A stretch of 64,000 nt of DNA, from positions 1 to 64,000 of the IMG/VR virus record IMGVR_UViG_3300037070_003657; one strand, 5' to 3'. Of the stretch, positions 3,473 through 35,404 are shown in pieces. Positions within the stretch are counted from its first letter, which is position 1; each line of letters begins with the position of its first letter. This DNA is from a virus. The notes under the pieces are model-generated. The model was given only the letters and a program-made list of their open reading frames with translations. It was not told where the DNA came from and did no database searches. Position numbers and translations under genes: made by a program.

Positions 3473-3658
3473 ATGGTCAAGGTTCGGTGGACGCAGAAGT
3501 GCGCTGGCGGTTGTGGGCTCACCCTCAACGTCGGCTCGCACGCGACCCGCCTGCACGGAGGGCTGTGGTGCCTCGAATGCCTAGGACGACACCGCCTGAC
3601 GTGCAAGGTCTTGACAACTACCGGTACTGGAAGCCCGAGGCCCAGGCCAAGGCCCTGA
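3473..3658 (+). CDS. Small zinc-ribbon-like protein overlapping terminase
   Basis: 61 residues from ATG 3473. The first 45 residues carry C-x3-C, CLEC and a later Cys, a plausible zinc ribbon. The tail (GTGSPRPRPRP) is low complexity and lies inside the terminase start, so the overlap is about 90 bases. Real if the Cys pattern is meaningful; otherwise it is only leader sequence. Confidence 0.45.
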   Translation: MVKVRWTQKCAGGCGLTLNVGSHATRLHGGLWCLECLGRHRLTCKVLTTTGTGSPRPRPRP

Positions 3659-9500: not shown

Positions 9501-9833
9501 TCAGGCGAGGTCGGGGTAGATCACGACCTTGTTGTCCGCCCGGAACGTCTGCGGCCTGTTGCCCGGCCACATCGCCTCCACCTCGAAGGTGATGGTGCCG
9601 GGCGTCAGCGTGTCAGCGGTGATCCACGACATCTGCACCACGCCGTTGGGGTCACCGATCCCAGGCCGGTCGATGAACGTCGCCCCGTTCTTCCTGCCGA
9701 TCACCCGGACGGCGGTGGCGAGGGTGAAGTCCACCGGACCCCTGATGTTCGTCAGCGGGTCTCTGGCGATGATGTCCAGCACCAAGTCGGGCTCCAGGTC
9801 GCCCGTGCGAAGTTCAAGGTTGCGTGTGATCAT
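9501..9833 (-). CDS. BppU-like baseplate/fibre N-terminal domain protein
   Basis: 110 residues from ATG 9833 (ATGA overlap with the larger fibre gene upstream on this strand). The pattern LELRTGDLEPDLVLDI, then a polar ligand-like segment, a short strand and FEVEAMWPGN, resembles the N-terminal domain of baseplate upper proteins (BppU_N) and related virion proteins. It is last in the leftward host-interaction operon. It probably attaches or caps a fibre. Confidence 0.55.
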   Translation of the reverse strand: MITRNLELRTGDLEPDLVLDIIARDPLTNIRGPVDFTLATAVRVIGRKNGATFIDRPGIGDPNGVVQMSWITADTLTPGTITFEVEAMWPGNRPQTFRADNKVVIYPDLA

Positions 9834-12800: not shown

Positions 12801-13162
12801 TGTGCACCGGGGATCGACAGCAGGAACATGGTGGCGCTGCCGGTGATCGTCGCGGCCTGGGTCACCGCGAAGGTGCCCGTCTCCGAGCCCGTCGAGAACT
12901 TGTAGGCGATGCCGATGGCCATCGTGGTCGAGGTGGCGGTGTCGCCACCGACCGGCAGTTCGGTGAACCCACCCGTCCACCCGGAGAAGGCGGCGTTGGT
13001 GCCGGTGCTCGTCTGGTAGGAGATGCAGATGGCAATGAGCAGGTCGCCGGAGTTCTTCGTCAGGCTGGACAGGCTCGGGAAGGTGCGGGTCGCGGTGGTG
13101 TTCGCCTGGACGTTCGAGAGAATCCGGCCAGCCCCCGTGGTCGGGATGGTGGGGAACGTCAT
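9830..13162 (-). CDS. Large tail fibre with beta-propeller-like region and 19 tandem repeats
   Basis: 1110 residues from ATG 13162 (ATGA overlap with the upstream gene). The N-terminal ~230 residues are Thr/Ser/Gly-rich and probably a jelly-roll. The middle (about 250-600) contains SSDGETW, like the sialidase Asp-box S-x-D-x-G-x-T-W, and beta-rich sequence typical of a propeller. The last ~430 residues are nineteen units of about 20 residues (GAVTGALSKVGSVTGKRFPA type), then a 40-residue cap. It is probably a host-surface binding fibre. An antiparallel open frame of 1053 codons covers most of it and is a GC artefact. Confidence 0.8.
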   Translation of the reverse strand: MTFPTIPTTGAGRILSNVQANTTATRTFPSLSSLTKNSGDLLIAICISYQTSTGTNAAFSGWTGGFTELPVGGDTATSTTMAIGIAYKFSTGSETGTFAVTQAATITGSATMFLLSIPGAHASTAPEAGGRTSGTAGTSNPTSFDPGAWAAEDTLWISVGAQGETSTAGTFDTMLGAPTNYTGAVIGSISNDAVGGVQGAIAFRQLNASSEDAAGFTKDTTNTRDAAIIIAVRPLVPQTLRSGEVTGTLSKVGEVTGDNGSVTLPARIGTATNAVEPESHSYVPVIMDTNGMRYRVIEGSLNNNPAGQQNQPRMMKSSDGETWTEMDAANRPGVSEAGIGDLESGWLTYDAGGYATFSWQRSYPVWVRFRTSDHATNPDTWLITTRNQVGTGTGSPQYMSHTKPADQSYHWAFFNDGSDMAYLSVNSTTGVEASQNVLDTAAIGPAAIINPDDNSSIVIYAKSSQLHYKRLTSAGTLTGPTRIDTSGVNAVALPHAAPQVYDNGTNEYVGALWANGTGLPRFSLITNGTPGSEEVVGSSAVVLDPGATGNQGAVLSLAVNPSNGTFYAIWSQASNSDVMYSERPLAGSWSTPVAISQPAFTPAWVYASVLTKPDTSLLFAWVYVQEVDDDQSAVWYNETALAALGQGEVTGTLTRVGSVTGNRRNVSNWTSVVSATTTSGIQQGSVSGTLSRVGSVTGKKFPAGAVTGALSKVGSVTGKRFPAGAITGAISRVGSVTGKRVAGGAVTGALSKVGSITGTRVSRGAVTGALSRVGSITGTTVRRGAVSGTLSRVGSVTGARASAGSVAGALSRVGSMVGETPAVGAQDGSVSGTLTRVGSVTGKRFPAGAVTGAISRAGVVMGLELGYVIGAITRAGTVTGVRTPKGAVAGTVTRVGAVTGRRVAGGAVTGALSKVGSVTGQAPLVGVNDGSVIGTVTRTGVVTGTRVPKAAVTGTLTRVGSVTGSAPKKGAITGTLTRVGSVTGKRIAGGSITGALTRSGAVTGKEPAGGSVTGALIRIGGVTGVRVAKGAVTGTVLRVGSVVGRHPPPKGAVVGAITRVGAVTGESPEVIVTLVDGRASIRTTAVSAVIRPDTDDTSSVPALAGAIIEA
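9953..11113 (-). repeat. Nineteen-unit 60-bp coding repeat array
   Basis: Each unit encodes about 20 residues made of two similar halves: G-[AS]-[VI]-T-G-x-[LIV]-[ST]-[RK]-V, then G-[SA]-V-T-G-x5. Fifteen units are exactly 20 residues long. Two have four-residue insertions (ending in GAQD and GVND), two have lost a residue and one has gained one. Single GEVTG units also occur earlier in this protein and in the next gene upstream. Confidence 0.9.
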
Positions 13163-14046
13163 GCCGTCACCGTCCGCACCCGGTAGTCGTACTCGGTGGA
13201 CGGGGTGCGCCCGGTGTCGGAGTAGGAACTGACCGGGTGGTCGTAGACGATGATGGCGCCGTCGCGCTCGATGTCGTAGCCGGTCGCACCGCTCATGTCG
13301 TCCCAGTTCAGGTTGATCTGGGTGCTGGAGATGGGCGTGGCCGTCAGGTTGGTCGGCACCGGCGGCAGCGGCATCTCTCCTGTCACGGCCCCCACCAGCG
13401 AGCGGGCTCCTGTCACCTCGCCGTCGTTCGGTCCGGCGCTGACGTTGGCAGCCCACACCACCGCCTGCACCAGGAGCGTCGAAGCGTCAGCGGTCCATGA
13501 GGCGGGAGCAGAGCCGACGCCGATGCCCATGCAGACCCGGCGAGCAGGAGCGGTGCCGGTGGTCAGAGTCGCACCGGACTCCGCGCGCAGCACCGTGCAG
13601 TGGGCCGTGTTCCCCACCGGGGCGCAGACCTGGACGGTGCCAGACGCCTTCTCCGTCGTCGTCACCCCGTAGTTGCCCGAGGAGCCCGAGCGCCAGGTGA
13701 ACGGGTCGGAGAGACCGGCGACGATGTCGTGCCCGGTCTCGATGATGTCGTACTGCGTGGTGGCGGTCGGGTTGGTTGCTGCCGCCGTCGCCATCCGGAT
13801 GTTGTTCCAAGAGGTCTCCAGGAAGACCAGCGGCACCGCCATCGTCGGGTAGGCGGTGATTGCGGTCGAGGTCGAGGAGCCCGACTCGGTGTGCACCACC
13901 ACGTCGTAGACGGAGGTGTCGGTCGGGGGTGCGGAGTTCTCCGACTGCTGGGTGACCGAGTGTCCAGCGGTGGTGAGCGCGCTGACAATGATCGCGTCGT
14001 TGGCGTTCGGCGTCGGGTCGTCGTGGACGACCAGGACATCGACCAT
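13159..14046 (-). CDS. Virion protein with Fn3 C-terminus
   Basis: 295 residues from ATG 14046, preceded by a GGGGAGGGGA purine tract. Residues 1-190 (MVDVLVVHDDPTPNANDAII then VFLETSWNNIRMA) look like an alpha/beta ThuA or amidotransferase-like fold. A linker with GEVTGARSLVGAVTG shares the motif of the neighbouring repeat array. The last ~80 residues (PTNLTATPISSTQINLNWDD) are a fibronectin type III domain. Probably a tail-fibre component; catalysis is not shown. Confidence 0.7.
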   Translation of the reverse strand: MVDVLVVHDDPTPNANDAIIVSALTTAGHSVTQQSENSAPPTDTSVYDVVVHTESGSSTSTAITAYPTMAVPLVFLETSWNNIRMATAAATNPTATTQYDIIETGHDIVAGLSDPFTWRSGSSGNYGVTTTEKASGTVQVCAPVGNTAHCTVLRAESGATLTTGTAPARRVCMGIGVGSAPASWTADASTLLVQAVVWAANVSAGPNDGEVTGARSLVGAVTGEMPLPPVPTNLTATPISSTQINLNWDDMSGATGYDIERDGAIIVYDHPVSSYSDTGRTPSTEYDYRVRTVTA

Positions 14047-14087
14047 GTTCCCCTCCCCTCAGAAGCCCCTGGGGCAAGGGGAGAGGA

Positions 14088-14456
14088 TCAGGTGGCGGTA
14101 CCGGTGATGGTGATGCCGGTGACCGTGTACTCCCCAGCGGCGTTGAAGGTCTGGTCGCCGGTCAGCGGGTAGTCGCCGTAGTACGTGCCACCGGTGGGCG
14201 GGGAGCCTGAGCCAGCGGCCGACCAGAAGCCAGCGTGCGTGCACGGCCCACTCGCGGCACCGCCGGTGAACGCGAGGTCCACGGTGGCGATCATGTCGCC
14301 GTTGGCAGCCGTCACCCAGGTGATGGCCTGGCGAGCGGACAGCGCCTGGTTCGTGGTACCCGCCGCGTTCGGCTGCGCGGTGGCAAGGGACATGTGGGTG
14401 GCAGCAGCCTGCATGGCCGCAGCGCCGATGTTCTGCAAGGTGTCGTTGAGCGGCAT
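14088..14456 (-). CDS. Small virion/fibre protein
   Basis: 122 residues from ATG 14456. Ala/Thr/Gly-rich beta-type sequence beginning MPLNDTLQNIGAAAMQAAATHM, without signal peptide or membrane span. Such proteins occur among actinophage tail fibres and are probably fibre tip or decoration domains. It is flanked by GC hairpins in the gaps on both sides. Specific function unknown. Confidence 0.6.
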   Translation of the reverse strand: MPLNDTLQNIGAAAMQAAATHMSLATAQPNAAGTTNQALSARQAITWVTAANGDMIATVDLAFTGGAASGPCTHAGFWSAAGSGSPPTGGTYYGDYPLTGDQTFNAAGEYTVTGITITGTAT

Positions 14457-14543
14457 TGTGTCTCCTCGGTCTGTCCTGGACGGAACCTAGTGTGCCTCGA
14501 CTCCCCTCAGTTTGGGGAGAGACTCGCTAGGCCGAGCATAGGG

Positions 14544-17429
14544 CTAGAGGGAGGCCACCCTCCGAATGTCGTCGCTGAGGACGTAGACCTCGGTCAGCGT
14601 GACTGCTGGGCTGGCGCCCTGTCCGCCGGTGGTGATCGAGGCCGCGTCCGGCTCGCCTCCGTGGGAGGTGGTCCGCACGACGATCCGGATGGCGTTGCAG
14701 TCCTGGGGTACCGGCAACTTCACCGGGAACACCCACTGCTCGTCCCAGAAGGTGTCGCGCTGGGTGCCGGTGTTGTGCGAGTCCGCACCGTGCAGCATCG
14801 AGGTGGGCGTCTTGGTCACCGTGGCCCTGGTGGTCCACGCGCCGCCACCGTTGGTGGAGGTCTGGATGTCGAAGTCGGCCAGCGTCGACTGCTGCTGCCA
14901 GCCCATCCCGGCGTAGATGATCACGTGGCTCACCTGGCGGAAGACCGGGAACCTCACCGTGTAGTTCGACGGCACCGCGCCCACCGACATCTCGGCGTTG
15001 TTGTCGTAGGTCAGTTGCCACTGCCCGTCCACCGCGAGGCGCGAGCCGGTGATCCCGTCGAAGGAGCCGAACGAGTCCAGCCCGGCGAGGTTCCCCGCGT
15101 CCCGGTTGTTCAGGTCGAGGAAGGTCTTGACCGTGGCCGTGCAGCCAGCAGGCAGGGCCACCCAGGTGGGAAGTCCGCCGATGCCCACAGTGATCTCACC
15201 GTTGATGGGGTTGACCACCGTGGGCTTGCCGAACCCGTCCCGCCAGGTCACGCTGCTCGGCACCGCACCGGCCAGTTTCAGCACCATCGTGGCGTTGTCG
15301 AGGTGGCTGGTCGCCACCAGCGCCAGCGTCGAGGTGTCGTCCGCGCCGGTGTAGACGTTGCCCATGAACAGGTGCGGACCCAGCCCCTTGCCGAAGTCCA
15401 TCGGACCCGAGTAGATCTTTCCGTACACCATCTCCGCCATCACCCGGACCATCTGCGCGTGCGGGTTCAGCGACTGGTCCTCGTTCATCCACCAGCCGGG
15501 GAAGCCCCAGAAGCCGTGGGACTTGTCGTACCAGAGGTTGTTGCGCTCCTTGGGGATGCCGTAGCGCTCCAGCATCAGGTGGTAAAGCATCTGCCAGCGC
15601 GCACGGCGAGGGTGGTAGACCCCGTAGACGGGGGTGAGGACGCCGAACTCCCCCTGCCAGCGGGGCATGTGCTCGACCCCGGCGGAAGTCAGCACCTCCG
15701 CGAACTTGTCCATCGTGTGGAAGCCGGTGTGGATGTCGGTGATCATGAAGTTGTAGACGTGGACCATGACCGCGTCGATGTAGTCCTTGGCCGCGACCAC
15801 TGGCCCGTCGATCTTCCAGGAGTCAGCCCCGTTGGCGTTGATGCCGGTCAGCCAGCGCCACAGCGCGGAGACACCGCCCAGGCTGCCATCGGCCAGCGGC
15901 CCCCACTGGTCGTTTCCGATGTCGACGATGCTCGGCCCCATGACCTTCGCCGCAGGGTTCGCAGCCTTCACAGCGGCGTGGAACATCCGGGCGTCGTGGG
16001 CGTAGCGCGACACGTTCTTGCGCAGGTCCGGCTCGTTCTCCGGCCCCTCGTACCACAGGCACTTGTACGGCGCCGCCGAGCACGCGGTCACGACCTGCTT
16101 GACGCCGTTGTACTTGGCGACCGGGATGGTCCCGCTGGCCACAGTGACCGCGCCGTTCGAGTCCTGGTCGTTCGCCCGGTAGGTAGCCACCAGTGCGCTG
16201 TTCGCGGTGGCCTGCAAGACGGCGGTAACGGTGGCCGGGACGTTGTCGTAGACCTCCACTTCACCGTGCTCGTGAGCGACCGCGCCCGTCTCCACCAGCA
16301 CCGCGTCGAGCCACGCCTGACCCGATCCGCTGTCGACGGGCACCGGCTCGAAGGTGATCTCGGTCAGTTCGGTGATCGGGGTGAAGGTCACCGACATCTT
16401 GGTCCAGGCGTTCTTGGTGGTCATGGACGCGCTGGTGTTGACCTCGGGGATGCTGAGCCGCACGTTCGGGGAGCCGGTGGGGACGTAGGCGTAGGCGCTG
16501 AGCGTGTACGTCGTGGCGGTGTCCAGTTCGAGGACGGTGTTGGTGTTCTGGGTGGTGCCACCAGCCCAGGTGCACAGCAGGGACTTGGTCCCGTGCTTGG
16601 CGACCACCGACGACTGCTCGACGGTGGCGTTGGGGTTCCAGCCCCAGGTGCCGGTGCCGGTCTCGAACGAGGCGTTCTCGGCGGAGAGCAGGTTGGTCGC
16701 GGTCGCTCCCTGGTTGAACGTGATCTTCAGCCCTGACGAGGTCCCTGCTGCCACCGTCACGGTCGTGGCACCGCGCTCCGCCACGGCCCCACTGCGGTGC
16801 ATCCCGTACATCCTGTTGCCACCGAAGACGAAGCGGTCGACCGAGTCGGCCGGGAACGAGATGTAGGCGTGGCGCGGACGGGCCGCGTCAGGTCCCAGGG
16901 CATCGGCCCCCGTGGTCCAGTATTCGTTCGAGACCAACAGGCTCGCCTGGGCGTTGGCGATGCTGTCGAAACCGGAGGTCGGGTTGTCGGGGATGGTGAT
17001 CTGGAGACGGCTGGTGCCGATCCCCAGCCAACCCTTCAACGCCAGGTCGGGGGACTCGCCGCCCACGGCCTGGTCCTCGGTCCGGTTCGGCCGAGGGGTG
17101 AAGCGTGCGTCGCTGGTGATCACCGAGAAGTTGGTGACGCCCCGGCTGAACCCGTACAGGGAGTCGTTCGTAGCACCGGTCAGGTAGAGCCGGTACCAGC
17201 CCACGGGCCAGCCACCGCCAGGCGCTGTGGGTGTGACGCCGGTAGCCGCCGACAGCGACCCCGTGGTGATCGTCGCGCCGGTGTAGTCCCTCACCGTCCA
17301 GGTGCCGGTGACGGCCTTGTCGAAGGTGAAGGTCGGAGTCTCCCCGACCAGGTAGATGTTGCCGCGTGTCGAGCCGCTGATCACCGCGTAGGCGCTGGGG
17401 ATCGGGCTCAGCGGGAAGGCGACAGCCAC
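14544..17429 (-). CDS. Tail fibre with GH-A-type glycoside hydrolase and carbohydrate-binding domains
   Basis: 961 residues from GTG 17429, two bases past the upstream stop. Domains: N-terminal beta-sandwich; FETGTGTWGWN-type CBM4/9-like module near residues 245-390; a TIM-barrel-like centre with WYEGPENEPD (candidate acid/base E466) and RWQGEFGVL (candidate nucleophile E594). The 128-residue spacing suits the strand 4 and 7 glutamates of clan GH-A. The C-terminal ~170 residues look like an F5/8 discoidin module. A likely depolymerase acting on host surface or extracellular polysaccharide; substrate unknown. A long antiparallel frame opposite it is a shadow. Confidence 0.75.
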   Translation of the reverse strand: MAVAFPLSPIPSAYAVISGSTRGNIYLVGETPTFTFDKAVTGTWTVRDYTGATITTGSLSAATGVTPTAPGGGWPVGWYRLYLTGATNDSLYGFSRGVTNFSVITSDARFTPRPNRTEDQAVGGESPDLALKGWLGIGTSRLQITIPDNPTSGFDSIANAQASLLVSNEYWTTGADALGPDAARPRHAYISFPADSVDRFVFGGNRMYGMHRSGAVAERGATTVTVAAGTSSGLKITFNQGATATNLLSAENASFETGTGTWGWNPNATVEQSSVVAKHGTKSLLCTWAGGTTQNTNTVLELDTATTYTLSAYAYVPTGSPNVRLSIPEVNTSASMTTKNAWTKMSVTFTPITELTEITFEPVPVDSGSGQAWLDAVLVETGAVAHEHGEVEVYDNVPATVTAVLQATANSALVATYRANDQDSNGAVTVASGTIPVAKYNGVKQVVTACSAAPYKCLWYEGPENEPDLRKNVSRYAHDARMFHAAVKAANPAAKVMGPSIVDIGNDQWGPLADGSLGGVSALWRWLTGINANGADSWKIDGPVVAAKDYIDAVMVHVYNFMITDIHTGFHTMDKFAEVLTSAGVEHMPRWQGEFGVLTPVYGVYHPRRARWQMLYHLMLERYGIPKERNNLWYDKSHGFWGFPGWWMNEDQSLNPHAQMVRVMAEMVYGKIYSGPMDFGKGLGPHLFMGNVYTGADDTSTLALVATSHLDNATMVLKLAGAVPSSVTWRDGFGKPTVVNPINGEITVGIGGLPTWVALPAGCTATVKTFLDLNNRDAGNLAGLDSFGSFDGITGSRLAVDGQWQLTYDNNAEMSVGAVPSNYTVRFPVFRQVSHVIIYAGMGWQQQSTLADFDIQTSTNGGGAWTTRATVTKTPTSMLHGADSHNTGTQRDTFWDEQWVFPVKLPVPQDCNAIRIVVRTTSHGGEPDAASITTGGQGASPAVTLTEVYVLSDDIRRVASL

Positions 17430-17430
17430 G

Positions 17431-18789
17431 TCAGACCCAGATGTTCGTACGGGTGATTCCGGCCTGACCGGCAGAGCCAGCCACCCCGGTTCCGTTCTTC
17501 GCCCCGCCTGCGCCACCTGCGGCTGACAGCACCCCGGTCCAGCCCGTGGTGTCCGTGGTGTTCAGGACTGCCACACCGCCAGCGCCACCGCCACCGCCAC
17601 CGGCGTTGGTGCCCACGGCGTTGCCGCCGTTCTCGGCGTCGGCGCGGATGTTCACCGAGCCGGTGATCCGGCGAGCGTTCACGATGACCACCTGGCCACC
17701 GTTGCCGCCCTTCCCGCCGTTGCCGCCGCCACCGCCGCCAGCGCCACCGGAGGCACCGCCTTCGAGGGGGTAGAAGTTGTTGTTGTTGGGGTTCAGCCAG
17801 TCGAAGATCGGCAGCATCCCGGTGAACGCCGAGGGGGCCGACTGCAACCAGTATTGGGTCAGGGCATTGGAGCCGAACTGGGTGTTGGTCCCGTTGGCAC
17901 CGCCTCCAGCGCCACCCGACCCGGCGCCACCCGCACCCGACCCGGCGAAGGAGTTGTAGGCGCCGTTCTCCACGCCACCAGTGCCAGCGCCAGCGCCACC
18001 GGCAGGCCCGATGGAGCCAGGGCCGAAGAAGCCGAAGCGGCCGGGAGTGGTGCCGCCGGTCTCAGCGACGATGTTGCCGGTCCCCGACAGTGTGCCCAGC
18101 ACGTTGATCGGCATCCCTGCCGGGCGGAGGGTGACGCCTGCACCCAGGACCAGGTCGGTGGCGTTGATCGGGTGGACAGCGGAGTAGACCGAGCCCGACT
18201 TGCTGAACGACGCATGGGTGACGGTGCCGTCGAGGACGAGGCTGCCGTGCGAGCCGGTGCCGAACCAGGCGTACTGCCCGACCGCAGGGTGGGAGTGGTC
18301 GCCGCGAGAGTAGGTGTCGTCGGAGCCTGCGCTGCCACCGGCCATGCTCGCCGGGGCCGGAGCGTCGTCCTCTGCGAGCGCGACGTTGGCGATGGAGTCC
18401 AGCACGTCGGCGCCGAAGGAGGTGGCGGTCGGCCACCAGGACCCGGCCGGGTCCGCGATGAACGTGCTGCCGGTGTGCTGGCCTGGAAGGACCAGGCTCT
18501 GCCCGCCCAGCCCTCGGATGTTGCCGGTGACCGTCACGTCGTTGATCGAGGCGTCGATCTTCTCGACGCCGATCATGGAGCCACCGGCCTGGCCGGTCGG
18601 CAGCGACATGGACTTGGCCCCGCCCGAGGCGTCCACCGGAGTGTGTCGCCCGACCTGGAGCGGTCCGCTCGTGGAGGTCGTGGCCGCGACGATCATCCCG
18701 CTGCCAGCAGCAGCCAGAGCCTCGATCCCGTCGAGGTCGAGGTTGAGGTCGTCTCCCCAACTCGGGATGCCGATGACTGGGCGAACCAT
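17431..18789 (-). CDS. Gly-rich tail fibre protein
   Basis: 452 residues from ATG 18789. The N-terminus MVRPVIGIPSWGDDLNLDL is a short virion-type domain. A SDDTYSRGDHSHP segment near residue 160 resembles the His-containing collar motif of phage fibres. The C-terminal half has long Gly runs (SGGAGGGGGGNGGKGGNGG) ending in GQAGITRTNIWV, like Gly-rich adhesion tips. Part of the leftward fibre operon; probably host recognition. Confidence 0.75.
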   Translation of the reverse strand: MVRPVIGIPSWGDDLNLDLDGIEALAAAGSGMIVAATTSTSGPLQVGRHTPVDASGGAKSMSLPTGQAGGSMIGVEKIDASINDVTVTGNIRGLGGQSLVLPGQHTGSTFIADPAGSWWPTATSFGADVLDSIANVALAEDDAPAPASMAGGSAGSDDTYSRGDHSHPAVGQYAWFGTGSHGSLVLDGTVTHASFSKSGSVYSAVHPINATDLVLGAGVTLRPAGMPINVLGTLSGTGNIVAETGGTTPGRFGFFGPGSIGPAGGAGAGTGGVENGAYNSFAGSGAGGAGSGGAGGGANGTNTQFGSNALTQYWLQSAPSAFTGMLPIFDWLNPNNNNFYPLEGGASGGAGGGGGGNGGKGGNGGQVVIVNARRITGSVNIRADAENGGNAVGTNAGGGGGGAGGVAVLNTTDTTGWTGVLSAAGGAGGAKNGTGVAGSAGQAGITRTNIWV

Positions 18790-18812
18790 AAGAGCCCTCG
18801 CTTCGCAAACAG

Positions 18813-18850
18813 AACTGGTCGGGACCAGTGTGCCCTGGTCCCGACCAGTT
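18813..18850. terminator. 16-bp perfect hairpin
   Basis: Arms AACTGGTCGGGACCAG (18813-18828) and its complement (18835-18850) flank a 6-base loop between the holin and fibre genes. On the minus strand no U-run follows, so it may be a processing or pause site that sets the lysis-to-fibre ratio rather than a full terminator. A protein-binding role is also possible. Confidence 0.65.
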
Positions 18851-18874
18851 TAGATACAGACGCGCCCCTGGGCG

Positions 18875-19246
18875 CTACGCAGCAGGAGGCGGGCTGTCGT
18901 GGTTCAGCGCACCCTGAGCCTTGGCCGTCACCCCGGTGGGGTTCCACAGGCCGTAGTGCGTGGCGACACCGATCACGAACGTCACCACCGTCGACAGCAG
19001 TGCCTGCTGCCACACGAAGTTGCTGCTGTTGATGAACTCCGTCAGGAACCCCGACACCGCCGAGAGTCCCAGGAGGAGCAGCGACTTGATGGTGGGGCTC
19101 GTGCTGGCCTTGGTCACCAGACCCACCAGGATCGGGATGAATACGCCGATCAGGAGGCTGGCCACCTGGACCGCGTCGATGGTCGTGTGCGCGGTGGGGT
19201 CGATGTCGTTGTCTAGCCCCAGCGTGGTGATGGTGTAGATGAGCAT
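18875..19246 (-). CDS. Holin
   Basis: 123 residues from ATG 19246 (GGAGATC upstream). Three hydrophobic helices are visible: about residues 26-45 (QVASLLIGVFIPILVGLV), 54-70 (IKSLLLLGLSAVSGF) and 77-98. The Pro-rich C-terminal tail is cytosolic. It lies directly downstream of the endolysin gene on the same strand. It probably forms membrane holes that time lysis. Confidence 0.8.
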   Translation of the reverse strand: MLIYTITTLGLDNDIDPTAHTTIDAVQVASLLIGVFIPILVGLVTKASTSPTIKSLLLLGLSAVSGFLTEFINSSNFVWQQALLSTVVTFVIGVATHYGLWNPTGVTAKAQGALNHDSPPPAA

Positions 19247-19252
19247 GATCTC

Positions 19253-19981
19253 CTACTTCCCTGAGGCCAGGAGCAGGAGCGCCTTGGCCTTGTCCTTCGC
19301 CTTGTTGAAACCGTCCCACATCCAGACGGCGGTGGCGATCTGTGGGACCAGGTTCGCACGAACGGCGTTCCAGTCGTCCTTGGTCCAGTCGACCGGTGAT
19401 GGCATGTCGTCCTCCAGTTCTTTCTCCCAGGCGTAGAAGTCGTCCAGGGTCTTGTCGATGTCGGCGCGCCACTGAGCGGGCGTGCCGACCGGCCACGGGG
19501 GACGGCCCTCGTCGCCAGGGAACCACGACTTGTCGAGGTCCACGTTGTGCATCCCCGCCAGCCCGAAGGCGTGCAGGTAGTAGTCCTCGATCTGGCCGGG
19601 CACGAACACCCCGACCGGGATGGCGAGGTGCGGGTGGACCAGCGAGCACATGTGGATGTGGTCGGACCACGGCCCCTGGCTGGGCTTGCGCCACCAGGCT
19701 GCCCACCCGCACGAGCGCAGGAACCGCTGTGCCGCCGACCAGGTGAGGCCCACGATCATCACGTCCAGACAGCGGTCCTTGTCGTGGGTGCCCGCCGAGA
19801 CATCCACGTCGTCGTGGTAGCAGCCCTGAATGATGATCAGCCTGGCGCTGGGGTGCTGCTTCGCCAGCCGCTGCTTCGTGTAGTCGAGGTGATTGGCGGT
19901 GGCCTTCGAGCACTGGAAGAATCCGTGGCCGGTGCTCGGCTGCGAGTAGGTGACCTTCTCGGTCAGGTCGAGGACGGTCAT
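19253..19981 (-). CDS. Endolysin, M15-like zinc peptidase
   Basis: 242 residues from ATG 19981. GTHDKDRCLDV supplies His66 and Asp73, and WSDHIHM supplies His108 and His110. This reproduces the H-x6-D ... H-x-H zinc ligand spacing of D-Ala-D-Ala carboxypeptidase/VanY (M15) enzymes used as endolysins. The C-terminal ~90 residues (WPVGTPAQWRADIDKTLDDFYAWEKE) may form a cell-wall or helical domain. It is next to the holin, and the start overlaps the following EEP gene's stop. Confidence 0.75.
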   Translation of the reverse strand: MTVLDLTEKVTYSQPSTGHGFFQCSKATANHLDYTKQRLAKQHPSARLIIIQGCYHDDVDVSAGTHDKDRCLDVMIVGLTWSAAQRFLRSCGWAAWWRKPSQGPWSDHIHMCSLVHPHLAIPVGVFVPGQIEDYYLHAFGLAGMHNVDLDKSWFPGDEGRPPWPVGTPAQWRADIDKTLDDFYAWEKELEDDMPSPVDWTKDDWNAVRANLVPQIATAVWMWDGFNKAKDKAKALLLLASGK

Positions 19982-27613: not shown

Positions 27614-30388
27614 TTGCCCATCGGTGGTGAGAACGTCGGCACCGCGTACGTCCGCATCCTGGCGGACGGCGGTGACCTCGACGACTCCATTGCCGACCAG
27701 ATGGACAACATCGACTGGGACAAGATGGGTCGGAAGTCCTCCAAGGAGTGGTCCGAGGGCTTCGAGGACGAGCAGAAGAAGGCCCCCAACCAGACCAAGT
27801 TGCGGGACGCCATCGCTGGGACCCTGGCACGTGGGGACTGGCTCACCCAGACCTTCTTCCGCAGCAAGAACTGGACCAACTTCCGGTCCTCGATGGAGAA
27901 GGAGTTCGGTGACGCCGGGAAGTTGGCGGCGCAGAGCCTGGAGGAGGACCTGTTCAACGGGCTCGACTTCGACGGGCTCGACCGGCGGCTCGACAACCTG
28001 ACCGCCGACCTGGTCAAGGCCCGCAAGACCCTGGACGCCCAACTGAGCAAGCAGACCCAGCAGACCCTCGACGAGGCGTACGCCATGAACGTCGAGTTCA
28101 ACAAGCGAGTGCTCGCCGCCGAGGTCAAGTTGCGGCAGGACCGGGACAAGCAGTGGGACCTGCACCTGAGCACCGTCCAGGACACCCTCGACGAGGCGTA
28201 CGCCATGAACGTCGAGTTCAACAAGCGGGTCGACGAGGACGAGGTCAAGTTGCGTCTGGACCGGGACAAGCAGTGGGACCTGCACCTGAGCACCGTCCAG
28301 GACACCCTCGAAGAGGCGTACCGGATGAACGTCGACTTCAACAAGCGGGTCACCGAGGAGGAGCGGCAACTGCGTCTGGACCGGGACAAGCAGTTGGACA
28401 TCCACCTCCAGCGCACCCGTGCGTACTACGAGGAGGCGTACGACCTCAACGCCAAGTTTGACAAGGCGTCCCACGAGGCGCTGCGGCGCCAGGCCATCGA
28501 CCACCAGCACCTGCACCCGATCCTGCGCCAGACCATCCGAACCAGCGACCGGCTCACCGAGTCCATCGCGCGGGTGTTCGGCAAGGGCTCGCGGTCCGAG
28601 TTCCTCAACGTCTTCGGCCGCTCCGTGGGCGCGCTCTCCTCGCTGCTGGTGCTGCCGCTGAAGGCGTTCTCCGGTCTGCTGTCCATCGGCGGCAAGGTCA
28701 GCGACATGTTCGAGGGTGGCTTCAGCAAGGGGATCGTGAAGTTGACTGCCTCCTTCGGCCTGCTCGCCGTGGGCGCTGCCGGTCTGACCGTTCTGCTCGG
28801 TGGAGTGTTCGTCGCCGTGGGGGTGCTGACCTCAGCCTTGTTGTCCCTGGCCGGTGCCGCCGTCGCCGTCGCCTCCTCCCTCACGTTCGCCCTGGCCGGT
28901 GGAGCCGTTGTGGCCCTGGGTGCCCTGGTCCCGCTGGCTGCTGGGATCGGTGTGGCCACCCTGGCGATCATGAACATGGACGAGGAGACCAAGAAGGCGT
29001 TCGACGGCATCGGCAAGTCCTTCAAGGCTCTGGGCACAGACGCTGCTGGCAACATCTTCAACTCGGCAGCCAAGGACGCGGAGGCCCTGGAGGAGGCGGT
29101 CAAGGGACTGTCGGTCATCACCGGTCCCGTGTCGAAGGCGCTCGGTGGGCTGCTGGACGAGTTCATCGACTCCCTCTCCGACCCGGCCCTGGTCAACTTC
29201 CAGGCGTTCCTGGGCCGCACCCTGCCCGGCATGGTCACCTCCCTGGGTCACATCGTGGGCAACTTCGGTGAGATTTTCATGGGCATCTGGATCGCCATCA
29301 CCCCCTTCGTGCAGCGCTTCCTCGACTGGTTCAGCCAGGTCACCCAGGAGTTCGCCAACTGGGTCAACTCGGCCGAGGGGAAGAACACCATCCGCCAGTT
29401 CCTGGAGGACGCCTTCGACTCGGCGGAGTCCCTGGGTGGGGCGCTGGAGGAGATCATCGGGCTCATCGGTGACCTCTTCGGGGTCAGCCGGGAGACCGGT
29501 GACAGCATCTTCGACACCCTGGCCGGAAAGGTCGAGGAGTGGCGGGCGGCGCTGAACCGGGCCAAGGAGGACGGCGTCATCCAGCAGTGGTTCAGAGACG
29601 CCAAGGAGACCACCGATGAGATCGGCCGGATGGTCGAGGCCATCGGCAAGTTCGCTGACGCTATGGACACCCCGGAGAACCGGGAGACCGTCCGTCAACT
29701 GACGGGCCTGTTCGACGACCTGCTCCTGATCATCGAGACCCTGGCCCCGGTCTTTGTCTCCGCCTTCCACTCGATGGGTATCGCCATCGAGCCCGTTGCC
29801 ACCGCCATCCGCCAGACCAAGGCAGCCTTCAAGGACTTCGGTGGGACCGTCCGCACCATCTACAACTCGATGATCGGACCCGCCTTCTCCCAGATTCTGA
29901 AGGCCATCGGTGGAGTGCTCGGAAAGATGGGCGACCTGTTCGGGGCGCTGGCCTCCGTCAAGGGCGCCCCCGACTGGATCGGCAAGACCGCTGACGCCCT
30001 TCACGGGGCCGAGGACCAGACCAACCAACTGGCCGACGCCATCCGAACCATCCCCGACGCCGACATCAAGGTCACCGGTCCCAGCGACGCCACCATCAAC
30101 AAGATCGAGGCCCAACTGGCTGGCCTGTCCCGCCCGCGTACCGCCACGATCACCGTCAACACCCTGCTGACCGGTCACCCCGGCCCTGGTGCTGGCGGTC
30201 AGGACGACCGTGGCGTCACCGCCGTGACCACCCCCACCACCAGCAACCCCGGCGGCAAGCCCACCACTGGACAGGGTGGCAACAGCAGGACGGTCAACGC
30301 CAACGGCTGGCAGATCGTCACTCCCACCAAGGACCCCGAGGCCGTCGCCGCAGAGGTCCTCAACCGCCTCGCAGGCGCAGGATACTGA
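27614..30388 (+). CDS. Tape measure protein
   Basis: 924 residues from TTG 27614, with AGGAGG at 27601-27606. N-terminal helical region; four 40-residue repeats at about residues 149-296; hydrophobic membrane-like stretches at about 395-455 (VGAAGLTVLLGGVFVAVGVL and following); long helical C-terminal part. It sets tail length (each residue about 0.15 nm) and may insert in the host membrane. It is next to the chaperones. Confidence 0.9.
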   Translation: MPIGGENVGTAYVRILADGGDLDDSIADQMDNIDWDKMGRKSSKEWSEGFEDEQKKAPNQTKLRDAIAGTLARGDWLTQTFFRSKNWTNFRSSMEKEFGDAGKLAAQSLEEDLFNGLDFDGLDRRLDNLTADLVKARKTLDAQLSKQTQQTLDEAYAMNVEFNKRVLAAEVKLRQDRDKQWDLHLSTVQDTLDEAYAMNVEFNKRVDEDEVKLRLDRDKQWDLHLSTVQDTLEEAYRMNVDFNKRVTEEERQLRLDRDKQLDIHLQRTRAYYEEAYDLNAKFDKASHEALRRQAIDHQHLHPILRQTIRTSDRLTESIARVFGKGSRSEFLNVFGRSVGALSSLLVLPLKAFSGLLSIGGKVSDMFEGGFSKGIVKLTASFGLLAVGAAGLTVLLGGVFVAVGVLTSALLSLAGAAVAVASSLTFALAGGAVVALGALVPLAAGIGVATLAIMNMDEETKKAFDGIGKSFKALGTDAAGNIFNSAAKDAEALEEAVKGLSVITGPVSKALGGLLDEFIDSLSDPALVNFQAFLGRTLPGMVTSLGHIVGNFGEIFMGIWIAITPFVQRFLDWFSQVTQEFANWVNSAEGKNTIRQFLEDAFDSAESLGGALEEIIGLIGDLFGVSRETGDSIFDTLAGKVEEWRAALNRAKEDGVIQQWFRDAKETTDEIGRMVEAIGKFADAMDTPENRETVRQLTGLFDDLLLIIETLAPVFVSAFHSMGIAIEPVATAIRQTKAAFKDFGGTVRTIYNSMIGPAFSQILKAIGGVLGKMGDLFGALASVKGAPDWIGKTADALHGAEDQTNQLADAIRTIPDADIKVTGPSDATINKIEAQLAGLSRPRTATITVNTLLTGHPGPGAGGQDDRGVTAVTTPTTSNPGGKPTTGQGGNSRTVNANGWQIVTPTKDPEAVAAEVLNRLAGAGY
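28045..28490 (+). repeat. Four 120-bp tandem repeats in tape measure gene
   Basis: GAGGCGTA recurs ending at exactly 28080, 28200, 28320 and 28440. Each 40-residue unit reads like DEAYAMNVEFNKRV then LRxDRDKQWDLHLSTVQDTL. Units 1 to 3 are nearly identical at DNA level; the fourth has diverged. A coiled-coil rod whose copy number would change tail length. Confidence 0.85.
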
Positions 30389-30398
30389 GGAGCACGAG

Positions 30399-30437
30399 AT
30401 GGCCTGGCCTGGATGGTTCCAGTTCGACGGCAGCGAG
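30399..30437 (+). pseudogene. Orphan 5' end of minor tail gene (first copy)
   Basis: ATG 30399 has GAGGAG 11 bases upstream and reads MAWPGWFQFDGSE, the expected start of the minor tail protein. It then runs into unrelated sequence at the HNH gene. The same 13 residues reappear after the HNH gene at 30972-31011 with synonymous differences. It looks like the original start left behind by the insertion. It would give a nonsense fusion read out of frame through the HNH gene to 30962. Confidence 0.65.
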
Positions 30438-30454
30438 AGTGCTAGTGTCCTGCC

Positions 30455-30955
30455 ATGCGTAACTGTACCCATCCAGGCTGCGACCGCCCCTACCGACGCA
30501 GCGGCTACTGCTCATCCCACGCTCGGCAGTTCCGCCAGTGGGGGAAGACGTTCGATCTCACCAGCACGGGCAGAGCGATGCACCGGTGCCAAGAGCCTGA
30601 GTGTGACGAGGTGGCCACGGGGTTCTGCGAGAAGCACATGCCCGAGTGTGCAGCGGTCGGTTGCAGCGACCCTCGTCGCTCCCACTTGGCCACCTACTGC
30701 GAGGTGCACCACAAGCGGAACTACTTCCTCCACCGGAACTTCAACATCTCTCTCCCAGAAGTCGAGGAGATGCTGGACCAGCAAGACAACCGGTGCGCGA
30801 TCTGTCGCCGGAACGGTCCGGCGACACTGCACCTCGACCACTGTCACGAGACCGGTCGGATTCGTGGCCTACTCTGTGGCAACTGCAACAGAGGAATCGG
30901 GCTCCTTGCCCACGACCCAGAGGTACTGCGGCGAGCAGCCGACTACCTCGCGTAG
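30455..30955 (+). CDS. HNH endonuclease, recombination endonuclease VII type
   Basis: 166 residues from ATG 30455, with no clear ribosome site. N-terminal Cys/His-rich zinc modules: C-x4-C, C-x2-H, CEKHMPEC, C-x3-H. The nuclease core is CAIC (114-117), LHLDHCHETG (126-134), RGLLCGNCN (138-145) and GIGLL, matching the T4 endonuclease VII family (PF02945). It occupies almost the whole insert between two copies of a gene start, so it is probably a mobile homing-type element. No intron core fits in the few flanking bases. Confidence 0.9.
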   Translation: MRNCTHPGCDRPYRRSGYCSSHARQFRQWGKTFDLTSTGRAMHRCQEPECDEVATGFCEKHMPECAAVGCSDPRRSHLATYCEVHHKRNYFLHRNFNISLPEVEEMLDQQDNRCAICRRNGPATLHLDHCHETGRIRGLLCGNCNRGIGLLAHDPEVLRRAADYLA

Positions 30956-30971
30956 GGGGTGAGTTGGAACT

Positions 30972-32385
30972 ATGGCATGGACAGGCTGGTTCCAGTTTTG
31001 ACGGCTCAGAGATCATCAACGCCCAGCGGACCGAGCAGTACGCCGCCAACCTGCGGCTGCCCTGGTTCAAGCCGGTCTACAAGAACGACTCGCTGGGGTA
31101 CATGCTCGGGGACGACGTTGCCTACCGCACCCCGCTGCTCGACAACGCCCCCTGGATGGACAACGACGCCGATGAGAGCGCCGACTTCCTCGGCCTCTAC
31201 CCGCTCGACGTGGTGGGCATCGAGGCGTCCTCACGGCAGGCCAGCATCATCGAGTCCACCCGCAACGGCGGTGCCGTACGCGGGGTCCGGCACGGCACCA
31301 AGTCCATCGTGTTCAGCGCGGTGCTCATCGCCCTCTCCGAGGACGGGGTGGAGTACGGCCACCGCTGGTTGAAGCAGGTCCTCAACGGTGCGCCCTGCGT
31401 CAGCGGGGACTGCGGTGGGGGCGCCCTGTGCTACCTGTCGGCCGAGCCCAACATGGAGATTCCCCAGCCCACGGACGGCTACACCATCGGGTACGAGGAG
31501 GTCAGCGGGTACGGCGACGGGCTCTACGGCGACGGCCCCTACGGTGGCAGCAACGTCGTCATGGTTCCGCCGCAGCAGCAGTCCTTCTTCGACCCGACCC
31601 CCTGCCTGGACCCGCTGATGCGGTCCTTCCGGGACGTGACCGTCACCTCCGGCCCCCTCGTGACCAGCAAGATGAAGTTGTCGGACGGCTCCCACGCCTG
31701 GGCTGTCACCTTCACCGCCACCGCCTCCAACCCCTACGAGTTCGGCCGCGAGGTGGCCGTGATCGAGGGCTTTCTAGACCCTGCGGTGGACGTGCCCTGG
31801 GCTGAGGGGATCGTGCCCGGCTCCTACGACGCGCTGGGCACGGTGTACGACGAGGTCCCCTGCTACGACGCCGTGCCCGGCCCGGTCTACGACCCGCTGT
31901 GCCCGGCCCTGATCCCGCCACCGGCTCCGGCCGACGTGCCGCTCGGGTGCTACACCGCCCCGGCGAACTGGCACCGCCGTCAGATCACCATCCCGAAGGA
32001 GAACATCCCCCTGTGGGGCGACGTGCTCCCGATCATCCGCGTCCACGCCAGGGACGCCGAGGTGCGAGCCCTGCGGTTGCGGTTCTACACCGACGTGGAC
32101 GAGACCGGCGACCCCAACGTGGACCCGTGCTCCTTCTGCGGGGACATCGTGCTGTCCTACATCCCCAGGGGCGGCACGCTGGTGTTCGACGCCGCCTCCG
32201 AGGCCATCTACGTGGAGACCCCCAATGCCAGCCGCCGTGCCGACTCCCTGGTGTTCAGCACCGAGGGCAAGCCCTTCGACTGGCCCGCGCTCACCTGCGG
32301 GTTCGGCTACATCGTCACCTTCGACACCACCCAGACCCAGGCGCCGCCGATCATCGACCTCTCGCTCATCTCGCGGGTGATCTGA
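30972..32385 (+). CDS. Minor tail protein requiring a +1 shift near its start
   Basis: About 470 residues. GGGGGTGAG at 30956-30964 precedes ATG 30972, which reads MAWTGWFQF and then meets TGA at 30999. The sequence TTT-TGA-C allows the Phe tRNA to slip one base onto TTT, continuing as DGSEIINAQRTEQYAANLRL, like the prfB-type +1 site. Alternatives are TTG 30964 in the main frame, or a sequence error. The body is a beta-rich distal-tail type protein. The main frame is intact from 31000 to 32385. Confidence 0.7.
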
Positions 32386-32386
32386 C

Positions 32387-35300
32387 TTGCCCAGCGAGAC
32401 GTTTGACTTCACCGGAGGTTGGCAGAAGTTCCGCGTTCCCGACGATGTCCAGGAGATCGACATCGACGTGCGCGGAGCAGGCTCCGGCGTCAACCACGGC
32501 GGTCGCATGACGGCCACCATGAACGTCAACCCCCGCCAGGAACTCTGGCTGATGGTCGGGCGGGAGGGGAAGTCCCGCAACGGGCACCAGGGCGGTGGCG
32601 ACGCCTGGGGCGGTGGCGCACGAGGCGGCGACGGACGCGGTGGCGGTACCCAGGGCGGCAACGGTGGCGGTGGCGCGAGCGCCATCCGCAAGGGCTCGCA
32701 CGACGGCACCATTGCAGCGGTCGCCGGTGGCGCTGGCGGTAACTCCGGGGACGGCGGCAAGGGTGGCGACGGCGGAGGCAACAACGGCGAGAACGGGTCC
32801 AACGGCAACGCGGGCTCTGGCGGCACCACGGTCGCCAGGGGCGGCTCGCAGGACGGCGGTGGGGCTGGAGGCCGCTCGTCTCGTGGCGGCTACTGGACGG
32901 GCCAGGACGCGCCTGACGTGAAGTTGGCCCAGGGCGGCGTGGGCGCCTCGGCCAACAGGGACAAGACTGACGGCGGCGGTGGCGGCGGCGGTGGCTACTA
33001 CTCCGGTGGTGGTGGCCAAGCCTCAGCCCCCGGCTTCACCCCTGGTGGCGGTGGCGGTGGTGGCTCGAACTACCGGGGCGGCTCGCTGTCCAACGTCGAG
33101 TTCATCCGAGGCGGCGGCGGCATCGGCAACGGCCGGATCATCCTGTCGTGGAAGCCCCCGACCGTCGACATCACCCCGCCTCCTCCGCCGAGCAACCTGA
33201 ACTTCACCGGTCTGGTCATCGACAACGAGACTCCGACCCGCATCTTCGTGAACACCGTCAACCTGCTCATGGAGACCCCGGAGACTAACGACGCCTGGCT
33301 CCGTCCCATCGTTCGGTGGGGCAAGACGTGGGACTTCTCCGACGCCATCACGGTGGTCGGGGAGCGCGCCATCCCCGGCGTCATGACCTGGGCCACGCTG
33401 GCAGGGCTCGCGCCCAACACCCTGTACTACGTCCGAGCCTGGCTCCAGGACCCGGCCGGGCACATCTCGGAGTCCTACAACCAGGCGTCCTTCTGGACCA
33501 ACCGTCCGCCTGAGCCGCCGGAACTGGTGGACCCCAGCGAGAACCGCCAGTTCTCCGAGGTCGAGAACATCACCTTCAACTGGAAGCACGTAGACCCGGA
33601 CGACCCGGACGCGATGCGCACGTGGGAGTTCCACTGGCGGCAGATTCCTTTCCCCGGCTCACCGCAGACGGAGTGGCAGCCCTCGATCTTCGGAGAGGGA
33701 GCCGACCTGCCCGGCAACAACAAGTCCATCGTGCTCGACGCGGGGACCTTCCAGGGCAACCGGTTCTACGAGTGGACCGTTCGCACGATGGACGGTGCCG
33801 GGGTATGGGGCGACTGGGCTCGGCCCAACTCGCTGTACGTCATCAGCGAGACGATGCCTCCGCGCCTCACCTTCCCCATCAACGACGAGGCTGCCATCGG
33901 TGAGGACCCGCTGTTCATGCGGTGGGTGTTCGTCGACCCCGAGGCCGGGTCCACCCAGCAGAAGGCGGACCTGCGCTACCGGGCGGTGGGCACCATCGAC
34001 TGGATCACCCTGTACGGCGAGCCCGACCCCGGCCAGCCCGGACCCATCCAGGAGTGGGTCATTCCGAACGGCACGTTCCAGCCCGGCTACCGCTACGAGT
34101 GGTCGGTCCGGACCTACAACGAGGACGGGTTCGACTCGGACTGGGCAGAGCCCAAGACCTTCTGGGCGGTCGAGCGTCCAGGCACCGGGCTGAACGTCGT
34201 CATCGGACTGGAGCCCCGGCCCGAGATGCCCCCACTGGGGTGCGGGGTGAACCGGTTCTTCATCTACGACCGGGGTGGCGAGGTGTTCCGTGGGGAACTT
34301 ACCCCGATCCAGCAGTTCTCCTACGGCCGGAAGCGTGACGACATCTCCTCCTGCACCCTCGCGCTGAACGGCTTCGGCAAGGACTGCGGGGAACTGCTCT
34401 CGCAACTGCGCACCTGGATGCACGAGATCGTGGTGTTCCGTGATGGCAAGCGGGTCTGGGAAGGGCCGATCAGCCGCATCGACCTCGGTGTGGGCGAGGC
34501 GGAGATCGAGGCCAAGGACGTGATGAACTACGTCTACCGCCGGATCATGCGCCAGGGCTACAACGACACCGCGAAGTACCACCCGGAGACCGACTCCGTC
34601 TCAGGTGGGTACTCGGTGGTGAAGCGCGCCACCTCCATCGTCATGAACTGCCTGGCCTACGACGACCCCAACGTCTTGAAGTGGATGACCGCGCTCGACC
34701 ACAGCGACGACGCGATCCAGCACCGGGCCGTCCCCGACTACTCGAAGATGGCGTGGGAGGAGATCGACGACATGGCTGCCCACGCCGGTCTCGACTACAC
34801 GGTCTCCGGTCGGCGCATCATGTTCTGGGACACCCACCGCCCCATCGGTCGCCTGCCCGAGATGAGGGACGGGCACTTCTCCGAGCCGCCCCGCATCACG
34901 GAGTACGGGATGCAGTTGGCCAACCACCTCGGCACCACCAACGGCCAGGGTGTGTACGGCGTCGCGGAGCGAGGCATGAGCCCCGGTGGTGGGGTGCCGC
35001 CGTTCTACGGCTGGGTCGAGCAGTTGATCAGCGCGTACGGCGAGACCGAGGGCACCGCCCCCGAGGCGCTGACCCGTGCCGCCCGTGCCGAACTGGAGCA
35101 GGTGCTCGCCCGGCAGAGTGACCGGAACATCGCCGGGCGCTGGCCCGCACCGGTGATCGTGCGCGTCCCCGACAACGCCTACCTCAACCCGGACATCCAG
35201 GTCTCGTTCGACCACCTCATCCCCGGCGTGTGGATTCCGGTCCGGGCGGTGGGCACCGTGCGCGAGGTGGCCCAGTGGCAGAAGTTGGACTCGGTGACCG

Positions 35301-35404
35301 TCACCCAGCAGGGTGGCGACGAGGAGAAGATCGCGGTCGTCATGAGCCCTGCCCCCAACGACGGGCTCGACCCCGACGCCGACGCTGCCTCCGAGGAGGG
35401 CTGA
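32387..35404 (+). CDS. Large minor tail/baseplate protein (ReqiPepy6 Gp37-like)
   Basis: 1005 residues from TTG 32387. Order: short beta domain; Gly-rich region at about 60-245; two or three Fn3-like modules at about 260-595 (PSNLNFTGLV; PPEPPELVDPSENRQFSEVE; FPINDEAAIGEDPLFMRWVF); then a C-terminal part (FFIYDRGGEVFRGELTPIQ then CTLALNGFGKDCGELLSQLR and VWEGPISRIDLGVGEAEIEA) resembling the Gp37-like tail hub proteins. Probably the tail tip hub bearing adhesins. The next gene overlaps by one base. Confidence 0.8.
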   Translation: MPSETFDFTGGWQKFRVPDDVQEIDIDVRGAGSGVNHGGRMTATMNVNPRQELWLMVGREGKSRNGHQGGGDAWGGGARGGDGRGGGTQGGNGGGGASAIRKGSHDGTIAAVAGGAGGNSGDGGKGGDGGGNNGENGSNGNAGSGGTTVARGGSQDGGGAGGRSSRGGYWTGQDAPDVKLAQGGVGASANRDKTDGGGGGGGGYYSGGGGQASAPGFTPGGGGGGGSNYRGGSLSNVEFIRGGGGIGNGRIILSWKPPTVDITPPPPPSNLNFTGLVIDNETPTRIFVNTVNLLMETPETNDAWLRPIVRWGKTWDFSDAITVVGERAIPGVMTWATLAGLAPNTLYYVRAWLQDPAGHISESYNQASFWTNRPPEPPELVDPSENRQFSEVENITFNWKHVDPDDPDAMRTWEFHWRQIPFPGSPQTEWQPSIFGEGADLPGNNKSIVLDAGTFQGNRFYEWTVRTMDGAGVWGDWARPNSLYVISETMPPRLTFPINDEAAIGEDPLFMRWVFVDPEAGSTQQKADLRYRAVGTIDWITLYGEPDPGQPGPIQEWVIPNGTFQPGYRYEWSVRTYNEDGFDSDWAEPKTFWAVERPGTGLNVVIGLEPRPEMPPLGCGVNRFFIYDRGGEVFRGELTPIQQFSYGRKRDDISSCTLALNGFGKDCGELLSQLRTWMHEIVVFRDGKRVWEGPISRIDLGVGEAEIEAKDVMNYVYRRIMRQGYNDTAKYHPETDSVSGGYSVVKRATSIVMNCLAYDDPNVLKWMTALDHSDDAIQHRAVPDYSKMAWEEIDDMAAHAGLDYTVSGRRIMFWDTHRPIGRLPEMRDGHFSEPPRITEYGMQLANHLGTTNGQGVYGVAERGMSPGGGVPPFYGWVEQLISAYGETEGTAPEALTRAARAELEQVLARQSDRNIAGRWPAPVIVRVPDNAYLNPDIQVSFDHLIPGVWIPVRAVGTVREVAQWQKLDSVTVTQQGGDEEKIAVVMSPAPNDGLDPDADAASEEG

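Follow-up and report, generated by a model that had tools for sequence, protein, structure and literature searches.

A nuclease gene and a re-spelled 5' coding end interrupt a phage tail gene: a probable intron-like mobile unit without splicing

On the earlier view, a homing endonuclease that occupies an essential gene depends on an intron or an intein, or on the gene tolerating a split. Fungal mitochondria offer a further arrangement, in which mORFs make hybrid genes (Allomyces atp6; Glomus atp6, atp9, cox2 and nad3; PMC3630166): an endonuclease gene lies inside a protein gene together with a diverged, largely synonymous replacement end, and the native end is left stranded. By carrying in a re-spelled gene end, a nuclease can occupy an essential gene in a third way, one that is absent from the phage papers we searched; a search of the open literature, which took in few subscription papers, returned no natural example of it in phages. 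Essential phage genes are known to have nuclease genes nearby (PMC10448857), and the tail and capsid genes of mycobacteriophages contain introns, one of only 265 bp (PMC3706429). F-CphI, the founder of the DHHRN family, belongs to an endonuclease clade with a C-terminal catalytic domain (PMC6083498). In the phage tail gene described here, and at a second locus designated L099, we find the fungal combination of an endonuclease ORF within a gene, a replacement end and a stranded native end.

The window, by which we mean the whole stretch of DNA analyzed, is 64,000 bases long and comes from an IMG/VR virus contig of 64,224 bases. The structural genes stand out clearly, with the terminase at 3487, the portal at 5324, the major head protein at 20681 and the major tail protein at 24151. 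Several large ORFs (1208, 990 and 452 aa) occupy the minus strand at 9830-19981, with the portal/head-morphogenesis genes on one side and the gene for the major head protein on the other, and the two largest are nearly without family matches. Megablast against 50,697 phage records found no relative of the window phage, blastn over the region recovered a nuclease fragment only, and no close relative came up when viral and bacterial contigs were scanned by pattern, so the empty site of the window itself was not seen directly. By tblastn, the body of the tail gene matches 569 phage records, in most of which the annotation reads minor tail protein.

The start is indeed duplicated. ATG 30399 opens MAWPGWFQFDGSE and ATG 30972 opens MAWTGWFQF, with the endonuclease ORF between the two (Table 1). 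An earlier note on this DNA had described a tail-gene start duplicated and diverged on both sides of a nuclease gene, and the comparison bears this out: over the first 27 nt the copies are identical at 22 positions, and the next-best match elsewhere in the window, on either strand, is 18/27. Once a single extra T is removed from the downstream copy, the 13 codons comprise eight identical, four synonymous and one non-synonymous; the note had described the differences as mainly synonymous. The upstream copy enters the insert after GAG 30437 and the downstream copy enters the gene body (IINAQRTEQYA...) after GAG 31011; these two ends define an insert of 574 bp that interrupts a Dit-like minor tail gene between codons 13 and 14. 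Its GC content is 0.62, compared with 0.66 and 0.69 in the flanks, and outside the endonuclease ORF the material between the copies amounts to 17 nt on the 5' side and 16 nt on the 3' side. The layout departs from that of an intein, as the endonuclease ends at a stop codon of its own (30953-30955) and the insert has a length in nt not divisible by 3, and from that of a gene in pieces, as the 13 stub codons recur downstream and the two parts overlap.

Table 1. Features of the interrupted tail gene and its surroundings (window coordinates)
Feature	Position	Strand	Basis or remark
Tape measure gene	27614..30388	+	phrog_305 and others, E down to 4e-24; directly 5' of the native tail-gene start
Native Shine-Dalgarno region GAGGAG	30383..30398	+	Duplex energy -7.8 kcal/mol; 5-nt spacing to ATG 30399
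Native 5' end of the tail gene (stub), MAWPGWFQFDGSE	30399..30437	+	Position as in relatives; codon usage
574-bp insert with the endonuclease gene and the replacement 5' coding end	30438..31011	+	Copy ends
Endo VII-type (DHHRN) putative homing endonuclease, 166 aa	30455..30955	+	PF02945, phrog_2914, T4 Endo VII structure
Strong Shine-Dalgarno AGGGGGTGA of the replacement start	30954..30962	+	Duplex energy -13.6 kcal/mol
Replacement (re-spelled) 5' end, MAWTGWFQF then +1 DGSE, one extra T	30972..31011	+	Codon comparison with the stub
TTTTGAC frameshift point	30996..31002	+	Sequence; UUU UGA C resembles an RF2-type +1 shift site
Body of the interrupted Dit-like minor tail gene	31012..32385	+	phrog_838, E 2e-51
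Minor tail gene 3' of the interrupted tail gene	32387-35404

Position and codon usage both show the upstream copy to be the native one. In related phages (Arthrobacter, Rhodococcus and Microbacterium phages and Saccharomonospora phage PIS 136) no more than ~11 nt separate the tail-gene start from the tape-measure stop; MAYEGWFRFGGNEIINNERARGY is an example of their N-termini, and there is one start only at that position. The upstream copy lies 10 nt after the tape-measure stop, has a normal Shine-Dalgarno sequence, and has a codon usage at the 29th percentile of the window phage's own genes. Since its position thus matches that in the relatives and its codon usage is normal, we regard it as the original, and the downstream copy as carried in with the insert. 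The downstream copy falls in the lowest 2.3% of the phage's 13-codon windows; the nuclease gene is also codon-atypical, and the gene body is not. The Shine-Dalgarno sequence of the downstream start is the strongest among the starts tested; its spacing is 9 nt to ATG 30972 but only 1 nt to the in-frame TTG 30964. The frame of the stub itself stays open for 187 codons across the nuclease gene, ending at TGA 30960 just 5' of the replacement start; openness of this kind is seen in ~3% of comparable windows in other genes, and coupling by termination and reinitiation is possible.

A scan for the tail-gene motif gave a single distant match, L040. Two further loci, L127 and L128, were considered as tail genes with a 0.5-kb insert and rejected, the insert being an in-frame protein domain: at 3495-4045 of L127 and 3477-4054 of L128, ~180 residues lie in frame between the conserved halves of a Dit-like tail protein.

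The nuclease gene had been described as an HNH gene splitting a minor tail gene. The split stands, but the enzyme is not a canonical HNH nuclease. It matches Endonuclease_7 (PF02945, E 2.8e-22) and phrog_2914 (E 5e-30), and the nearest solved structure is that of T4 Endo VII (1e7d, E 9e-6). Aligned to 1e7d, the active-site residues of Endo VII are present (C114-C117, D128-H129-H131, R137 and C141-C144-N145), in the DHHRN pattern CX2-4C, DHxH, R and CX2C-N. The catalytic domain occupies residues 93-165 of 166, a C-terminal placement that goes with the endonuclease clade and not with the N-terminal resolvase clade. By its residues, then, the enzyme is of the DHHRN type, as in F-CphI.

The best-resolved case is L099, a terminase gene for which uninterrupted relatives exist. 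In these (L130 and L131) the terminase body is 97% identical, and their single 5' end has 91%-92% base identity to the L099 stub and 63%-66% to the downstream copy. The L099 insert amounts to a precise 641 bp against these relatives, and counted per ten codons the copy is identical to them at 17-20 of 30 bases before the insertion point but at 27-29 of 30 immediately beyond; the insertion is base-precise. Between stub and copy, 31 codons comprise five identical, 25 with synonymous changes and one with an amino-acid change, a synonymous excess without parallel in natural homologues: none of 861 natural homologue pairs of this segment has 20 synonymous differences, and pairs with at most two amino-acid differences have at most ten. 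A common GC-rich codon bias restricts the synonymous range of the natural set, so that the evidence for an L099 copy recoded rather than imported is strong but not complete. The suggestion that both copies had been under selection at the protein level or came from different phages was too narrow; the L099 pattern points to recoding with the protein kept, and not to ordinary import. Comparison with phages lacking the nuclease, which the note had proposed, agrees with the idea of a carried-in end, as tail-gene relatives have one start and the L099 relatives a single 5' end.

To see how widely the arrangement recurs, we gathered related endonuclease loci from viral and bacterial contigs and compared the DNA before and after 313 distinct ORFs; for 255 of them a start-anchored test compared the frame starting after the nuclease with start peptides before it, with the chance expectation taken from mismatched loci. 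This test found seven re-spelled 5' ends that we judge genuine besides that of the window, against 0.26 expected, in a locus sample that is not a random draw because one collection scan was seeded with an alignment including L099, L122 and L005. They belong to genes for a terminase (L099, VTTATELVHHFRPRGAAAELLRYRGGEVLIVGAA), a helicase (L122, MITPRSYQEDSL), an HTH protein (L005) and a portal protein (L364), all assigned by Pfam, and, by sequence resemblance, to a polymerase-like gene (L341, MKRIALDIETNLVH), a portal-like gene (L321) and a long terminase-like ORF without a Pfam match that is preceded by MKLLDQVEN (L373). Two more loci, L399 and L119, are the mirror image, with a replacement 3' end before the nuclease and a stranded native 3' end after it. 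Some 97% of the 313 loci have no such duplication.

The candidate pairs L213, L317, L231, L232, L398 and L404 were rejected as low-complexity translations of GC-rich DNA, as was the L001 match, which represents the window read in a meaningless frame and was left out of the count; a zinc ribbon locus (L054) was ambiguous and likewise not counted. L354 and L355 have nucleases before terminase starts but no stub, and were not accepted as cases. At positions 1640-2492 of both there are apparent tandem CxxxC zinc-finger-like repeats upstream of the nuclease and in the same frame.

At L005, L122, L321 and L364 the native start codon of the target gene and the endonuclease ORF share a reading frame, so that the nuclease would use the translation signal of its host gene. 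At 2830-2908 of L119 the final codons of the nuclease overlap the native portal coding sequence in another frame, and the C-terminus of this nuclease appears to be made from target-gene DNA. Endo VII-type nuclease genes also lie directly 5' of the same helicase family at five loci (L002 4288, L070 2875, L112 2510, L122 2737 and L220 2707); the helicases behind them are only ~40%-70% identical across loci, a recurrent resident site. Amino-acid change is also substantial in L005 and L119, and amino acids differ in L399 too. Relatives close enough to separate recoding from a diverged donor exist for L099 only: L298, L028 and L066 are too diverged to distinguish stub from copy in L364, L399 and L341, and a search of isolated phages with L341 and L119 returned no relatives.

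Taken together, these observations make it probable that the insert, made up of an Endo VII-type endonuclease gene and a re-spelled 5' end of its target, is a mobile unit resembling an intron but without splicing. The enzyme would cut uninterrupted alleles early in the target gene, the empty allele being the stub joined to the body (in the window, the uninterrupted gene would encode MAWPGWFQFDGSEIINAQRT). Repair of the break from an occupied allele would then copy in the whole unit, with the native stub and the DNA upstream of it serving as homology on the left and the gene body on the right. It is this homology to the empty allele on both flanks, with the nuclease and the re-spelled end between, that would make the unit intron-like. 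The native start would be left upstream as a stranded stub, and the target gene would be translated from the carried-in start with its own Shine-Dalgarno sequence. The re-spelled end, which stops exactly at the insertion point, could keep the enzyme from cutting the repaired gene and could prevent the recombination between stub and copy that removes the nuclease. The note's proposal of a homing event that carried in a replacement 5' end draws support from the native position and codon usage in the window and from the seven further 5' cases, one of which has uninterrupted relatives and a base-precise boundary. Judged by reading frame, the re-spelled end would restore the protein in the other 5' cases.

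We would rate as plausible, at somewhat less than an even call, that ordinary intergenic homing with co-conversion accounts for the same layout. The nuclease would have been resident just 5' of its target in the donor, the donor's natural 5' end would have been dragged into a diverged phage with no selection for re-spelling, and an imperfect left join would have left the stub as a scar. Co-conversion of flanks is well documented for the free-standing endonucleases of T4 (PMC2988022), related endonucleases lie directly before the helicase start in L002, L070, L112 and L220 and before terminase starts, with no visible stub, in L354 and L355, and the amino acids of stub and copy differ too in L005, L119 and L399. 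This reading fits less well at L099, where the copy is nearest in protein to its own stub (1 of 31 residues different) and yet has synonymous changes in 25 of 31 codons, unlike the 861 natural pairs, and it does not lead one to expect a copy that stops exactly at the insertion point, as in L099 and the window, since co-conversion tracts normally run on. The home-and-rescue and co-conversion readings overlap, as a replacement 5' end has to arrive with the insertion in either; they differ on whether selection for re-spelling shaped the copy.

How the interrupted gene of the window is read depends on the extra T in its 13-codon replacement copy. Where the upstream copy has TTCGAC, the downstream copy has TTTTGAC, and because of this the frame from ATG 30972 stops at TGA 30999 after MAWTGWFQF, with DGSEIINAQRT... 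one frame on (GAC 31000). The note had written this start as a continuous MAWTGWFQF-DGSE; the hyphen conceals a frameshift with a stop codon, and the statement that the replacement keeps the tail gene alive goes beyond a copy that, as sequenced, is shifted by one base. The copy may be broken, mis-sequenced or read by frameshifting, and whether the tail gene is alive depends on which of these holds. The other 5' copies are in frame, and for this reason the likeliest cause is an error of sequencing or assembly or else a genuine recent indel.

A programmed +1 frameshift, by which the replacement start would be read through to give MAWTGWFQF-DGSEIIN..., seems unlikely. UUU UGA C, a YUU UGA C slippery stop and one of two YTTTGAC sites in the window, permits perfect +1 re-pairing of tRNA-Phe and resembles the RF2 site; the strong Shine-Dalgarno sequence suits ATG 30972 and not TTG 30964, and a conserved motif is encoded on both sides of the shift. 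On the other hand, no stimulator resembling a Shine-Dalgarno sequence lies ~3 nt 5' of the shift site, where the sequence is GGTTCCAG, the remaining rescue copies are in frame, and one surplus T in a run of T's is a frequent mutation or assembly error. Still harder to credit is a tail gene starting at TTG 30964 (LELWHGQAGSSFDGSE...), with the second MAWTGWFQF a relic. That start is in frame with the gene body, but it would lose the conserved WFxF motif of the relatives, and its Shine-Dalgarno sequence is only 1 nt away, compared with ~5-6 nt at the clearest starts of the window phage, a spacing that makes it improbable.

Finally, splicing of the native start onto the gene body, by a group I or II self-splicing intron or otherwise, with the second copy an accident, is very improbable, even though mycobacteriophage tail and capsid genes do contain introns and one is as short as 265 bp: the Rfam intron families gave no match, and hence no catalytic RNA core, in the window at gathering or permissive thresholds, nor any match at eight sister loci, inspection of the duplicated stretch found no group I-like junction pair (exon ending in U, intron ending in G) with conserved spacing, and the 17 and 16 nt outside the ORF agree with the note's remark that there is no room for such an intron.

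As the arrangement recurs in other phages and in genes unrelated to this one, it suggests a natural counterpart of the engineered "home-and-rescue" design. Whether phages carry a general class of such elements, with Endo VII-type nucleases in essential genes (terminase, portal, polymerase, helicase, tail) and a selection-recoded target terminus that resists both cutting and recombination, keeps the protein and gives intron-like mobility without splicing, is to our minds evenly balanced. If confirmed, it would explain how a free-standing nuclease is able to attack an essential phage gene in its most conserved part. It would also provide a signature for which genomes can easily be scanned, a nuclease ORF flanked by the synonymous twin of a gene end, and a means of pinpointing the insertion site by comparison with empty alleles, as well as a natural precedent for synthetic home-and-rescue drives.

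The phage cases differ from each of the described systems in some respect. Fungal mORFs replace the C-terminal end, reside in mitochondria and use LAGLIDADG or GIY-YIG enzymes (PMC3630166), whereas the phage cases have Endo VII-type enzymes and replace mainly the 5' end, as in the window and seven loci; L399 and L119, the only 3'-end cases, match the fungal layout. F-CphI, known from collaborative homing, has the same C-terminal catalytic domain and is likewise encoded by a free-standing gene beside its target, but there an intron in the target guards against self-cutting, for which the phage insert would use its re-spelled copy (PMC6083498). In the T4 free-standing endonucleases and genes in pieces (Aeh1 nrdA, T4 gene 60), too, a nuclease gene sits within an essential phage gene that is kept functional; the gene there exists as two working parts, whereas here the lost end is duplicated and re-spelled (PMC2988022). 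Cluster J mycobacteriophages are also phages of high-GC hosts with mobile nuclease genes and introns in virion genes, but their HNH insertions are intergenic or intron-borne, and a re-spelled gene start is not reported (PMC3706429). The engineered home-and-rescue gene drive shares the logic proposed here, a nuclease that cuts an essential gene and brings the recoded functional remainder; it is CRISPR-based and was built for insects, whereas the phage case would be natural (PMC7968924).
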